A DNA stretch of 23,223 nucleotides. Origin: a virus. The notes beneath the pieces are model-generated. The model worked only from the letters and a program-made list of their open reading frames with translations, searched no databases and had not been told where the DNA came from. Shown piece by piece: positions 12,668 through 21,811 of the stretch. Where the stretch lies: positions 1 to 23,223 of IMG/VR virus record IMGVR_UViG_3300021185_000491; one strand, written 5' to 3'. A program made the position numbers and the translations under genes. Every line of letters begins with the position of its first letter. Positions within the stretch are counted from its first letter, which is position 1.

Positions 12668-13534
12668 ATGGACATTAAAATTACTACAGAACAGTTGCGT
12701 GGTTATAAACTTTTCATTGGGACACCAATGTACGGCGGAAACTGTTCTGGACTTTTCACTAAATCTTGTAACGATCTTGCAATGCTTTGTACCAAAGCAG
12801 GTATTGAGATTCGATTCTACTATCTGTTTAACGAAAGTCTTGTACAACGTGCAAGAAACTATGTCGTCGACGAGTTCTTACGCTCCGATAGTACGCACTT
12901 AATGTTCATTGATTCTGACATCCACTTCAATGCTAAAGATGTTCTTGCATTACTTGGTCTCGCAGTACACGATCCAGAAAACTATAACGTCATGACTGGC
13001 CCATATCCCAAGAAAACAATTGCATGGGAAAAGGTTCAAGTTGCGTCGAAAGCAGGACGTGGAGACGAAAGTCCTTTCGCACTAGAAAACTATACATCTG
13101 ACTTTGTATTCAATCCAGTACGTGGTATGAAGGGTGAATTCAAACTGAACGAACCAATCGAAGTATCAGAAGCTGGAACAGGTTTCATGTTAATTGGACG
13201 TGAAGTCTTTGAGAAGTATCGTGAAGCGTATCCAGAACTTGAGTACAAACCAGATCACGTACGCACTGAGAACTTCGACGGTGATCGTAACATCACTGCG
13301 TACTTTGATTGTATCATTGATCCAGAGACTAAACGTTATTTGTCTGAAGACTATTTCTTCTGTCAATATGCACGTAAAGCTGGTCTGAAGGTATGGATGT
13401 GTCCATGGATGAATATCAACCACGTTGGTACGCATATCTTTAAAGGTAACATGGCGGCAATCGGATCTCTTGGAGTTTCTGCAACTGCAGACGTTAAGTC
13501 TCGTAAAAAGAACTACAAGAAAAAGAAGAAATGA
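12668..13534 (+). CDS. GT-A type glycosyltransferase
   Basis: The 288-residue protein begins with a Rossmann-like half (KLFIGTPMYGG). It has an RARNYVVDEFL helix and the metal/nucleotide-sugar-binding motif FIDSDIHF with D82 and D84. EAGTGFMLIGREVF and LSEDYFFCQYARKAG (E227 and D228, the likely catalytic acidic region) follow. This is the layout of the phage GT-A glycosyltransferases seen in cyanophage-like T4 relatives. The C-terminus is very basic (KSRKKNYKKKKK). It probably transfers a sugar to a virion protein, DNA or host glycan; acceptor unknown. The ATG at 12668 follows GGAG, and the stop overlaps the next gene as ATGA. Confidence 0.85.
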   Translation: MDIKITTEQLRGYKLFIGTPMYGGNCSGLFTKSCNDLAMLCTKAGIEIRFYYLFNESLVQRARNYVVDEFLRSDSTHLMFIDSDIHFNAKDVLALLGLAVHDPENYNVMTGPYPKKTIAWEKVQVASKAGRGDESPFALENYTSDFVFNPVRGMKGEFKLNEPIEVSEAGTGFMLIGREVFEKYREAYPELEYKPDHVRTENFDGDRNITAYFDCIIDPETKRYLSEDYFFCQYARKAGLKVWMCPWMNINHVGTHIFKGNMAAIGSLGVSATADVKSRKKNYKKKKK

Positions 13535-14860: not shown

Positions 14861-15053
14861 AGATCCACGGAGTTTTTTAGGACCAGTATTCGAGAAGGGT
14901 TACCCTTCATATGAAGCAGTAAATAGAAAACCCGATGAGGAGATTACACTCTCGCAACTCAAACAAATATTCGTGAGTAATGGACTAGATTTTTTCATTG
15001 CATCACAAACAGGTAAAGTAGTCAAAGTGAATTTTATGGTGAAATCAGAATGA
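14853..15053 (+). CDS. Small hypothetical protein
   Basis: The 66-residue protein begins at GTG 14853, overlapping the end of the cytidylyltransferase by 8 bases, and its stop overlaps the next ATG as ATGA. The sequence has EEITLSQLKQIFVSNGLDFF and ends KVVKVNFMVKSE. No family is recognised. The double overlap in frame with the operon supports its reality. Confidence 0.72.
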   Translation: MSEDPRSFLGPVFEKGYPSYEAVNRKPDEEITLSQLKQIFVSNGLDFFIASQTGKVVKVNFMVKSE

Positions 15054-15841
15054 AAATAACAGTTGCAGGTTATGGTTATGTGGGCAAGGCTATTGTTAAT
15101 GCCTTCAAAGATGTTGTTACTTACGAAGTAGTAGATCCTGCGTTTCGTGAACACAACTTCCCAATTGGTAGTGACACTGATGGAGTTATTGTTTGCGTAT
15201 CTACACCTAAGAACGGTGATGGATCTTGCAACATCAGTAACGTACACAAAGTCATTGATGATTCGCCAGAGGATGTACCTGTCCTCATTAAATCAACAAT
15301 GAGTCTTGAAGGTTGGGAACAGATCAAATCGGCATTCCCAGATAGAGAGATCTCTTTCAGTCCAGAGTTCCTACGTGCAGAGACTGCGGATCAAGACTTC
15401 TTAAACCAGAAGTACATGATTCTTGGAAACGACACAGACGATAGTTTCTGGGCGCAACTATTTACACAACGGTTTAAAAGAATTCGCATTCACCATTGTA
15501 CTAACGAAGAAGCAATCACAGTCAAGTATGCAGAGAATGCATTTCTTGCACTTAAGGTTAGTTTCTTCAACCAAGTCTTCGATTTCTGCAAGGCAGCAGA
15601 TGTCAACTTCGATGAAGTTCGATATCATCTATGTCTTGATGAACGAATCGGAGATGATCACAGCTTTATTACTAACGAACGTGGTTGGGGTGGTCACTGC
15701 CTTCCCAAAGACACGCAAGCACTATTACATACTGCAGACCAATTCGGTGCAAGTTTTTCACTTATCGAAGAAGCGATTAAATATAATCAAAGAATTCGAA
15801 GAAAAGACTTGACAAAGGATGAGTTTTGGGGTATAGTATAG
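15050..15841 (+). CDS. UDP-glucose/GDP-mannose dehydrogenase-like, C-terminally short
   Basis: The 263-residue protein has the NAD-binding GYGYVG (7-12), CVSTPKNGDGS, IKSTM, FSPEFLRAETADQDF, the central helix with KYAENAFLALKVSFFNQ, and the catalytic-cysteine motif GWGGHCLPKDT (C217). These are diagnostic for UDP-glucose 6-dehydrogenase-type enzymes, which oxidise a nucleotide sugar to its uronic acid. Cellular enzymes are about 390-450 residues; here most of the C-terminal UDP-binding domain is missing, with only a short helix after the catalytic motif. It may work with a reduced sugar-binding domain or on another substrate. It ends within the promoter region for gp45. Confidence 0.88.
   Translation: MKITVAGYGYVGKAIVNAFKDVVTYEVVDPAFREHNFPIGSDTDGVIVCVSTPKNGDGSCNISNVHKVIDDSPEDVPVLIKSTMSLEGWEQIKSAFPDREISFSPEFLRAETADQDFLNQKYMILGNDTDDSFWAQLFTQRFKRIRIHHCTNEEAITVKYAENAFLALKVSFFNQVFDFCKAADVNFDEVRYHLCLDERIGDDHSFITNERGWGGHCLPKDTQALLHTADQFGASFSLIEEAIKYNQRIRRKDLTKDEFWGIV
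15809..15837 (+). promoter_or_regulatory. Early-type promoter for gp45
   Basis: TTGACA (15809-15814), 17 bases, TATAGT (15832-15837), 11 of 12 consensus positions. RNA would start near 15844, about 30 bases before the clamp ATG, and include the AAGGAGA ribosome site. A second weaker pair, TTGACT (15848-15853) with TATAAT (15870-15875) at 16 bases, overlaps the ATG at 15874. Confidence 0.75.
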
Positions 15842-19197: not shown

Positions 19198-19228
19198 TTG
19201 ACATTCAGTATTAAATGTGTTATAAATA
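19198..19228 (+). promoter_or_regulatory. Hybrid early/late promoter for hsp20
   Basis: TTGACA (19198-19203) lies exactly 17 bases before the late octamer TATAAATA (19221-19228), whose first six bases serve as a -10. Both host sigma70 and gp55 polymerases could use it. It lies just after the regA stop. Confidence 0.82.
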
Positions 19229-19290: not shown

Positions 19291-19734
19291 ATGAATCGTA
19301 CACATTTTAATACCCTCTCGCCGTTTACCGTTGGGTTTGACAGAGTTCTCGACAGAGTTCTAGATCAACAAGAACAGTCAACAGGTTTCCCCCCATTTAA
19401 CATCGTTAAAAAGACTGATACCAATTTCAGAATTGAGCTTGCACTTGCAGGTTACAAGGATGAAGACTTGACTATTAAATATCAGGAAGGTGTCTTAACT
19501 ATTACTGGGGATAAAGAAAACTCAGGTGGAGAGGAAAGAGGATATATCCATCGTGGTATATCAGGACGTAAATTCACACGTAAGTTTACTCTTGCGGATG
19601 ATATTATTGTTCAAAATGCAGAGTTATCAGATGGTATGCTGACAATTCAGATGGAACGTATTATTCCAGAAGAAAAACGTCCACGTACTATTGAAATTAA
19701 TACTGGTATTCAACAGTCCTTTTTACAGGACTAG
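19291..19734 (+). CDS. Hsp20 (alpha-crystallin family) small heat-shock protein
   Basis: The 147-residue protein begins with FNTLSPFTVGFDRVLDRVLD, typical of IbpA-like proteins (compare FxPLxxxxVGFDRxFD). FPPFNIVKKTDTNFRIELALAGYKDEDLTI and GVLTITGDKE follow within the alpha-crystallin domain, then GISGRKFTRKFTLADDIIVQNAELSDGMLTI, and PRTIEINTG as the C-terminal I-x-I motif. Such holdases prevent protein aggregation; Hsp20 is a common gene of T4-like marine phages, perhaps aiding virion assembly. The gene has its own hybrid promoter and a terminator, making it a single-gene unit. AGGAG precedes the ATG. Confidence 0.95.
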   Translation: MNRTHFNTLSPFTVGFDRVLDRVLDQQEQSTGFPPFNIVKKTDTNFRIELALAGYKDEDLTIKYQEGVLTITGDKENSGGEERGYIHRGISGRKFTRKFTLADDIIVQNAELSDGMLTIQMERIIPEEKRPRTIEINTGIQQSFLQD

Positions 19735-19743
19735 AGAATTTAG

Positions 19744-19769
19744 GGGAGGCTTCGGTCTCCCTTTTTTTT
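19744..19769 (+). terminator. Rho-independent terminator after hsp20
   Basis: GGGAGGC (19744-19750), a TTCG tetraloop and GTCTCCC (19755-19761) are followed by eight or more Ts. The UUCG loop is unusually stable. It closes the hsp20 unit. Confidence 0.92.
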
Positions 19770-19861
19770 GTTAACGTGTAATGTAGGGTACGTGGTAAAG
19801 ACGTGTCCTATTTTGTATGTAAGCGCAGGGGTAAAGCCTGCACACAACAAGGAGAAGTATT
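19770..19861 (+). promoter_or_regulatory. Leader region of the PiT-like permease, with a hairpin
   Basis: These 92 bases between the terminator and the permease ATG have no clear -35/-10 pair or late octamer. GCAGG (19825-19829) and CCTGC (19837-19841) form a 5-bp stem with a 7-base loop, 20 bases before the ATG and just upstream of an AAGGAGA site. A promoter must lie here or transcription must pass the terminator; I cannot place it. Confidence 0.4.
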
Positions 19862-20821
19862 ATGGAAATGTTAACTATGTGGAGTCTCATAGGATTCCTA
19901 CTTGCCGCATATGCGGTTATCGCCAATGATTCAGTACAGACGCTCGGTACATGGATGGCATCTAACAATGAGCGATTTTCTTACAAAACATTATGGTTAT
20001 CTGCATCAGGTGTTCTACTTGCAACACTCTGGTATGGTTGGTATGTGAATGGTGGAGACATCAGTTATGGACGACTTAACAAGATCCCATGGCAAGAGGT
20101 ACAATGGTATCATGCTGCCGCACCTGCAATCCTCGTATTACTAACGAGACTAGGTGTACCAGTATCAACTTCATTCTTAGTATTGTCAGTCTTTGCAAGT
20201 ACCTTTGTACTTGAGAAGATGTTGATGAAGTCTATTATGGGATATGGTGTTGCGGCGGCATTCGCATATGCAGTGTGGTTCGCTATACACAAGTATACAG
20301 GTAAGTGGTTTGATGAGACCCAACCAGTCACCGAAAGTAACAAGACGTACTGGCGCATTGCCCAGTGGGTTGCCACAGGTGGTCTGTGGTGGACGTGGTT
20401 GTCACATGACATTGCAAACATTGCGGTGTTCTTACCACGTGTAGTACCAGTTGATTTGATGGTTATGATATCTGTGGTATTCGTCACAGGTCTATTCTTT
20501 ATGTTTAAAGAACGTGGTGGTAAGATCCAACAGATTGTATTAGAGAAACATAACACAAGATATGTTCGTAGTGCAACACTTATCGATCTGTTCTACTGGT
20601 TATGTCTCTATTTCTTTAAAGAGTTGAATGATATCCCTATGTCAACAACATGGGTATTCGTTGGTCTACTCGCAGGACGTGAACTTGCAATGGCAACATA
20701 CTTTGGTAAGAAGAAAACCAAATCAGTATTCCCATTAGTCGCAAAAGACTTTGGTAAGATGATGGTAGGACTTGGTGCATCTGTTGCATTAGTTTTGGTT
20801 ATTCACAACTTTTTGGGTTGA
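19862..20821 (+). CDS. PiT-like (inorganic phosphate transporter family) permease
   Basis: The 319-residue membrane protein shows the internal duplication of PiT permeases. Repeat 1 has VIANDSVQTLGTWMASN (19-35) then GVPVSTSF (98-105). Repeat 2 has WLSHDIANIAVFLPR (179-193) then IPMSTTWVFVGLLAGRELA (258-276). These match the family motifs GxNDxxNxxGT and PxSTTHxxxGxxxG, although the His of STTH is Trp and the first is STS. About eight to ten hydrophobic segments are visible. It is shorter than cellular PiT proteins (about 400-500). A role in importing phosphate during infection is plausible, but a divergent member could move another ion. AAGGAGA precedes the ATG. Confidence 0.72.
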   Translation: MEMLTMWSLIGFLLAAYAVIANDSVQTLGTWMASNNERFSYKTLWLSASGVLLATLWYGWYVNGGDISYGRLNKIPWQEVQWYHAAAPAILVLLTRLGVPVSTSFLVLSVFASTFVLEKMLMKSIMGYGVAAAFAYAVWFAIHKYTGKWFDETQPVTESNKTYWRIAQWVATGGLWWTWLSHDIANIAVFLPRVVPVDLMVMISVVFVTGLFFMFKERGGKIQQIVLEKHNTRYVRSATLIDLFYWLCLYFFKELNDIPMSTTWVFVGLLAGRELAMATYFGKKKTKSVFPLVAKDFGKMMVGLGASVALVLVIHNFLG

Positions 20822-20848
20822 CAAACCATCTATAATATGATATAAATA
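20818..20848 (+). promoter_or_regulatory. Hybrid early/late promoter
   Basis: TTGACA (20818-20823) is 17 bases from the late octamer TATAAATA (20841-20848), the same arrangement as at 19198. The spacer also contains TATAAT. The -35 overlaps the stop codon of the permease. Confidence 0.8.
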
Positions 20849-20853
20849 ATGTT

Positions 20854-20885
20854 GAGAGAGGGGTTAGGCTCCTCTCTCTTTTTTT
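20854..20885 (+). terminator. Terminator-like hairpin at the predicted late transcript start
   Basis: GAGAGAGG (20854-20861) and CCTCTCTC (20871-20878) form a perfect 8-bp stem with a 9-base loop, followed by seven Ts. It looks like the terminator of the permease gene, yet it begins 5 bases after the late octamer, so RNA from that promoter would start with this hairpin. Either terminator, 5' stabilising element or attenuator. Confidence 0.75.
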
Positions 20886-20908
20886 ACACACACAAACAGG
20901 AGAATAAA

Positions 20909-21139
20909 ATGGCTAATAAAAATCCGTTCGAGATTCGTGCAGATATGTTGCAACTTGCAAAAGAGTACATGGATCAACAGTACCACATGAATGTTCAGTT
21001 TGCTGAACAGATGATGGAACAAGGTAAGAAGAGTATTGAAGATATTCAAGGATCTTACAAAATGTACTCTATGGAAGATCTCATGGAAAAAGCAAAAGAA
21101 ATGTATAGTTTCGTAAGTACACGAGACGACAAAAGTTAA
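20909..21139 (+). CDS. Small helical protein, conserved-looking in T4-like marine phages
   Basis: I use the ATG at 20909 behind CAGGAGA; an in-frame ATG at 20849 would start inside the promoter and hairpin. The 76-residue product begins MANKNPFEIRADMLQLAKEYM and contains QFAEQMMEQGKKSIEDI and SMEDLMEKAKEMYSFVS, an all-helical acidic protein. I recall proteins beginning NPFEIRADML in T4-like cyanophages, but no function is known to me. The strong hybrid promoter and dedicated terminator suggest high late expression, consistent with a structural or assembly role, though that is inferred. Confidence 0.88.
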   Translation: MANKNPFEIRADMLQLAKEYMDQQYHMNVQFAEQMMEQGKKSIEDIQGSYKMYSMEDLMEKAKEMYSFVSTRDDKS

Positions 21140-21314: not shown

Positions 21315-21611
21315 ATGTCAATTATGCCAGGCATTACGCCCGTAAACTCCCAATCATCAATGTTCTCAGTAACCGCCTACAAAGTAGTAGTATGGTTCGA
21401 AAATCTAGGTCGCAAACTTGCTGAACGTAGAACACGTAGAGAAACATTCAAAACATTACATTCACTGACAGATCGTGAACTCGCAGATATCGGCATCTCT
21501 CGTGGAGATATCCGTTCTATCTCAAATGACACGTGGACAGATAACCGCAAACGTGATGAACTACCATACGTCCGTACTTACGCTAACCCAAACTTGAAGG
21601 GTTTAGTATAA
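21315..21611 (+). CDS. DUF1127-family protein
   Basis: The 98-residue protein contains a DUF1127 core at about residues 44-70, FKTLHSLTDRELADIGISRGDIRSIS, preceded by a basic stretch (GRKLAERRTRRE). DUF1127 proteins are small, arginine-rich and abundant in Alphaproteobacteria and Enterobacteria, where some have been tied to RNA metabolism and phosphate or central-carbon regulation. A phage copy suggests capture from such a host. The first 25 residues resemble no part of the short DUF1127 proteins. The stop overlaps the next ATG (TATAATG). Confidence 0.9.
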   Translation: MSIMPGITPVNSQSSMFSVTAYKVVVWFENLGRKLAERRTRRETFKTLHSLTDRELADIGISRGDIRSISNDTWTDNRKRDELPYVRTYANPNLKGLV

Positions 21612-21811
21612 TGCAGGAATCAATGGAAGTAGTGGGTAACACACCAGTTGAAACACCAAAGTTCATCAAAACACTTGGCAAAGTATTAGTTGCTGTTGCA
21701 ATGGCACTATGGGCATTCGGTGAGTCAGCAGGTAGAGCAAGAGCAGCCGCTGAACTAGCACGTCAAGGCTACCAAGAGGAAGCAAGACGTTTAATGTTGG
21801 AGAGTAAATAA
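21611..21811 (+). CDS. Small protein with one hydrophobic segment
   Basis: The 66-residue protein has one hydrophobic, probably membrane or amphipathic, segment (FIKTLGKVLVAVAMALWAFGES) followed by an Ala/Arg-rich helix, RARAAAELARQGYQEEARRLM. No family is recognised. It is joined to the DUF1127 gene by a one-base overlap (TAATG) and to the following gene by TAATG, so the three small genes form a coupled cluster. Confidence 0.78.
   Translation: MQESMEVVGNTPVETPKFIKTLGKVLVAVAMALWAFGESAGRARAAAELARQGYQEEARRLMLESK

Follow-up and report, generated by a model that had tools for sequence, protein, structure and literature searches.

A divergent PiT-type permease, probably for phosphate, is encoded by T4-like phages and shared with marine bacteria

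The gene described here raises the question of whether a phage can supply its host with a complete phosphate permease, as was first proposed from its sequence. The whole stretch of DNA analyzed (the window, a virus record of 23,223 bases and probably a fragment) contains hallmark genes recognized by Pfam, namely a gp43 family-B DNA polymerase, a clamp-loader A subunit and RegA. The gp43 protein is nearest to those of T4-like marine phages, with a best identity to annotated phages of 44.6%. These hallmarks identify the window as T4-like phage DNA and place the permease in a phage genome. Elsewhere, the window contains a UDP-glucose/GDP-mannose dehydrogenase-like gene (by Pfam) and a gene for a 288-aa protein that lacks a Pfam match and appears glycosyltransferase-like by eye (15050-15841 and 12668-13534).

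The features surrounding the permease gene are listed in Table 1. The assigned start codon is backed by conservation of the N-terminus among phage relatives. Terminator-like sites are abundant in this region (10 versus 1.5 expected from shuffles), and the strong terminators on both sides insulate the permease from hsp20 and end its unit, in agreement with the original prediction of a separate transcription unit. A search for a promoter of the permease gene yielded none above chance; the pho-box-like element anticipated in 19770-19861 was absent, and no Pho box scored above chance anywhere in the window. The T4-late-promoter-like sequence TATAAATA occurs four times in the window compared to 1.1 expected, a count reached by 3 of 100 shuffles. 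One copy is directly 5' of the terminator hairpin of the permease (window 20841-20878), so that a late transcript from it would begin with that hairpin. The small ORF that follows lacked a Pfam match and likely starts at an internal ATG at 20910.

Table 1. Coordinates of features at the permease locus within the window.
Feature	Position	Strand	Evidence
T4-late-promoter-like TATAAATA 5' of the hsp20 gene	19221-19228		
Hsp20 small heat-shock protein, upstream neighbor of the permease	19291..19734	+	PF00011, E 9.6e-18
Intrinsic terminator 3' of hsp20, insulating the permease upstream	19742..19763	+	terminator search
Ribosome-binding site AAGGAG, ATG 7 bases downstream	19849..19854	+	sequence
Putative PiT-subfamily permease, 319 aa	19862..20821	+	ORF call, profile-profile comparison, fold search
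T4-late-promoter-like TATAAATA downstream of the permease, before the small ORF	20841..20848	+	motif count
Small ORF between the permease and DUF1127 genes	20849..21139	+	
Intrinsic terminator 3' of the permease, 11-bp stem and T-run	20854..20878	+	terminator search
DUF1127 protein, 98 aa, possible partner acting on a phosphate sensor	21315..21611	+	PF06568, E 1.2e-11
66-aa protein, probably single-helix, travels with the DUF1127 gene	21611..21811	+	

Direct searches with the window protein against Pfam, PHROGs, NCBIfam and PDB sequences produced no match that named it. In particular, the proposed search against PF01384 (PHO4) gave no match at E ≤ 1, leaving the protein short of the gathering cut-off of 33.7 bits, and profile searches of PDB sequences gave none, with 6L85 not reached by hmmsearch. 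Its relatives link it to the family. PF01384 was matched by 30 of 61 diverse subfamily members, mostly weakly (best E 4.7e-9; relatives scored 11-27 bits), and no other family was matched by more than three of the 61. Alignment of the 61 sequences with 28 confirmed PF01384 proteins by hhalign gave an E value of 7.3e-8 over 252 columns, and a phage-only alignment gave 2.9e-6, compared to 0.27-0.67 for the controls (a reversed alignment, five column shuffles and an unrelated alignment of NptA-type Na/Pi cotransporters). A Pelagibacter homologue also directly matched two confirmed PiTs of 350 aa, with the N-termini aligned to each other, at 32% identity (E 2e-4 and 6.5e-4).

The predicted structure points to the same family. 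With a diverse alignment as input, AlphaFold2 returned a confident model (pLDDT 86.9, pTM 0.85); the choice of input matters, as a phage-only alignment yielded a pLDDT of 40. In a Foldseek search of the PDB with this model, only chains of 6L85, the solved Thermotoga sodium-dependent phosphate transporter (a PiT protein), fell below an E value of 0.001 (E 3e-5, probability 1.00, TMq 0.60), the next-best match having an E value of 0.29. A fold search of BFVD retrieved no viral match. The modeled permease therefore has the PiT fold, and no other transporter family gave a better match in Pfam or NCBIfam or among PDB sequences and folds. Taken with the profile comparisons, this places the protein in a divergent PiT subfamily whose members usually fall under the Pfam cut-off and are missed by standard annotation. 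Nor is it unusually compact, as had been supposed, since many confirmed bacterial PiTs are 328-350 aa long.

Each half of the permease matched PiT halves by profile (E 2e-8 to 6e-4), and the two halves matched each other weakly (E 0.012; reversed control 0.35), so the basis for an inverted duplication is the PiT fold rather than the sequence. The pairing of halves depended on the type of PiT used for comparison. Against one PiT type, the first half of the permease compared better with the second half than with the first, and vice versa. In line with a possible half-swap relative to PiT, a circularly permuted alignment scored 66.9 versus 62.7 for the collinear one, ranking higher in 27 of 30 resamplings. 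Thermotoga-like PiTs favored the collinear arrangement, and alphaproteobacterial PiTs paired first half with first half.

The PiT family is marked by two signature sequences with the core GANDVANA, one in each half. Their counterparts in the permease are IANDSVQT and LSHDIANI, in which the Asp is retained and the remainder is altered. When conservation was scored over the 61 subfamily members, cellular ones included, N22, D23, Q26, G29, T30, D66, R71, P100, V101, S102, T103, F105, S124, W179, D183, A185, N186 and G303 were invariant, and P259, S261, T262 and W264 were kept in 60 of 61 (the remaining sequence reads X). The first half thus carries N22-D23..G29-T30 and P100-V-S-T, and the second half carries H182-D183-I-A-N186 and P259-M-S-T-T. 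The expectation that ND...GT and PxST motifs occur in both halves held for PxST, whereas ND..GT is confined to the first half and is replaced in the second by (H/Q)D-x-AN.

Several residues known to be critical in human PiT2 (D28, D506, S113, S593, E55, E575 and H502; PMC3126765) can be located in this alignment. The signature Asp of each half (D28 and D506) is present as D23 and D183 in all 61 members, and S102 and S261 were taken, by motif alone, as the putative equivalents of S113 and S593. The signature Asn is replaced by Q26 in the first half and H/Q182 in the second. W179 occupies the spacing of H502 in all 61 members; H502 is critical for Pi transport in PiT2, but its equivalent is missing from 5 of 60 bacterial PiTs (PMC3126765) and is thus not strictly defining for the family. 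Likewise, the second-helix Glu (E55) is V51 in the hhalign alignment, and its absence from confirmed bacterial PiTs such as L237 indicates that it is not universal. Finally, the His that follows PxST(S/T) is lost as first noted, with F105 and W264 in its place. The suggestion that this loss may signify a changed ion finds no support: the replacement is common to all 61 members tested, cellular ones included, and the His is also missing from 4 of the 28 confirmed PF01384 proteins, indicating an old subfamily trait rather than a phage adaptation.

Relatives of the permease were found in at least 593 IMG/VR contigs; among the 80 kept, the best segments were 89-100% identical (about 90%). None occurred in 50,697 annotated phage records. 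A genome scan identified chromosomal homologues, 57-63% identical over nearly the full length and with the same substitutions, in Pelagibacteraceae (SAR11), other marine Alpha- and Gammaproteobacteria and Flavobacteriales; no NCBIfam model named those tested. Homologues from Bacteroidota genomes are 41-50% identical to the flavobacterial one. Many of the Bacteroidota homologues are 370-390 aa long (L246:1336-2463, L247:1459-2574 and others) and carry about 50 extra N-terminal residues that the phage proteins lack. Phage-like contigs in a Rhodobacteraceae bin encode relatives at 82% and 73% identity, and the 73% branch in turn has 347 relatives, again spanning hundreds of viral contigs. In a phylogenetic tree, nine phage sequences, these two included, formed one clade (SH-aLRT 99.9) within a subfamily of cellular proteins. 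The chromosomal homologues lie outside that clade and are host genes, and a very long branch separates the subfamily from canonical PiT. The simplest reading of this topology is one ancient acquisition of the permease from a marine bacterium. Genes around the permease differ between most phage contigs. Among 95 distinct phage coding sequences, the median pS was 0.68, near saturation, and the median pN was 0.08; unsaturated pairs gave a dN/dS of about 0.06. The permease is under strong purifying selection. One query with a canonical alphaproteobacterial PiT found none in viral contigs. PiT matches in records labeled as phage (Listeria, Salmonella and others) were set aside as probable host DNA within unannotated records.

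Gene neighborhoods in cells bear on the substrate. Of about 38 cellular homologues, 7 had a PF02690 Na/Pi cotransporter gene nearby, which adjoined the homologue in six of the seven when spurious short ORFs were disregarded; because these loci stem from about three lineages, the linkage is suggestive only. Along with the profile comparison, the fold match and the relatives matching PF01384, these neighbors support the proposal of a PiT-like permease. No PF01384 protein above the cut-off was detected in ten genomes with a relative, nor any match in two SAR11 genomes searched. By eye, a SulP-type gene is near two cellular homologues, and in Pelagibacter ubique HTCC9565 (SAR11) the homologue has an aquaporin (MIP) gene and a ZnuA-type zinc system as neighbors (L174:5700-8963). 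Phosphate is the most likely substrate.

A second neighbor associated with phosphate lies in the phage itself. The DUF1127 and 66-aa genes co-occur in 44 related phage loci, usually adjacent to each other and often divergent from the permease, with both divergent and downstream arrangements represented. Of the 20 phage contigs in which DUF1127 was matched, 11 have it no more than 2 kb from the permease (1.8 expected, p 1e-7), as do 9 of 16 after near-copies were dropped (p 1e-6), p values that are optimistic because the contigs are related. In both Agrobacterium and E. coli, proteins of the DUF1127 family have been found to bind PhoR and to hold back phosphate uptake (PMC12501420). We found no open-access paper on DUF1127 in phage genomes. 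By this analogy, the two genes might form a phage phosphate module, a doubtful but conceivable arrangement in which the permease would import phosphate and the DUF1127 protein would bind host PhoR and switch the Pho response, uncoupling uptake from host control.

Taken together, the PiT fold and a divergent branch common to marine bacteria such as SAR11 suggest that these phages import phosphate directly during infection. We consider it probable that the permease is an inner-membrane secondary transporter of a divergent PiT (TC 2.A.20/PHO4) subfamily serving this purpose. The infecting phage would insert the permease into the host membrane, where it would act as a symporter that takes up inorganic phosphate together with Na+ (or H+), supplementing the host Pst system or going around it, and would thereby feed phage DNA synthesis. 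Transport would proceed by alternating access as in 6L85, with D23/D183 and S102-T103/S261-T262 predicted to surround the substrate and ion sites.

Counted against a phosphate-transporting PiT are the lack of a direct PF01384 match, the changes at canonical sites, the missing Pho box, the long branch and the SulP-type neighbors. The PiT superfamily also contains the sulfate permease CysP, and the protein could be a PiT-fold permease for another oxyanion, such as sulfate, or for metal-phosphate complexes. The binding-site region departs from canonical PiT at fixed positions, one cellular relative weakly matches the CysP model (E 0.003, far below the cut-off) and the zinc system of HTCC9565 would fit a metal complex; however, among the neighbors of the cellular relatives it is PF02690 cotransporters, not sulfate genes, that recur, and the phage gene lies close to DUF1127, which has been linked to the sensing of phosphate, making a different substrate unlikely. 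It is more improbable still that the protein has ceased to transport and serves another role in infection, for example by blocking a receptor (superinfection exclusion) or acting as a sensor. Loss of both the H502 equivalent and the PxSTT His would be consistent with such a protein, but the substrate-site motifs are invariant and chromosomal homologues of two phyla have these substitutions fixed as well, which a phage-specific role cannot explain. Chance resemblance of an unrelated membrane protein would account for the failure of Pfam, PHROG, NCBIfam and PDB sequences to match the window protein directly, yet it is contradicted by the profile, fold and relative-based evidence with its negative controls, and we regard it as highly improbable.

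The permease thus resembles PiT (PF01384 PHO4, TC 2.A.20, 6L85) in its predicted fold, its profile match over most of its length, its paired Asp and PxST motifs and its apparent two-half build, and differs in falling under the Pfam cut-off and in the F105/W264, Q26, H/Q182 and W179 replacements. PHO4 genes have been described in the algal viruses EhV-86, OtV-2 and BpV-1 and in JF837193, a partial phage-like clone of 1139 nt with a PHO4 ORF near HIMB59 (Monier 2012, PMC3429862), and pit is among the listed genes of soil phages (PMC10987575). These are virus-encoded PiT phosphate transporters with the same supposed role, but they were found by the PF01384 HMM or by annotation, and that HMM misses the window permease. 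Virus-encoded PHO4/PiT is therefore already known, and what appears new is the divergent subfamily in phages; our search of the open-access literature found no paper on it. Cyanophage pstS is likewise a phage gene for phosphate uptake, but PstS is a periplasmic binding protein that needs the host ABC transporter, whereas the window protein is a whole permease.

The phosphate genes known from phages, such as PstS and PhoH, mostly aid host systems. For hundreds of uncultured T4-like phages, a complete permease encoded by one gene would open a direct phosphate route during infection, one that surveys of phage metabolic genes relying on Pfam, PHROGs and NCBIfam will have overlooked, since these miss the window protein. 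Moreover, the chromosomal homologues suggest that SAR11 bacteria possess an unannotated phosphate-type permease.
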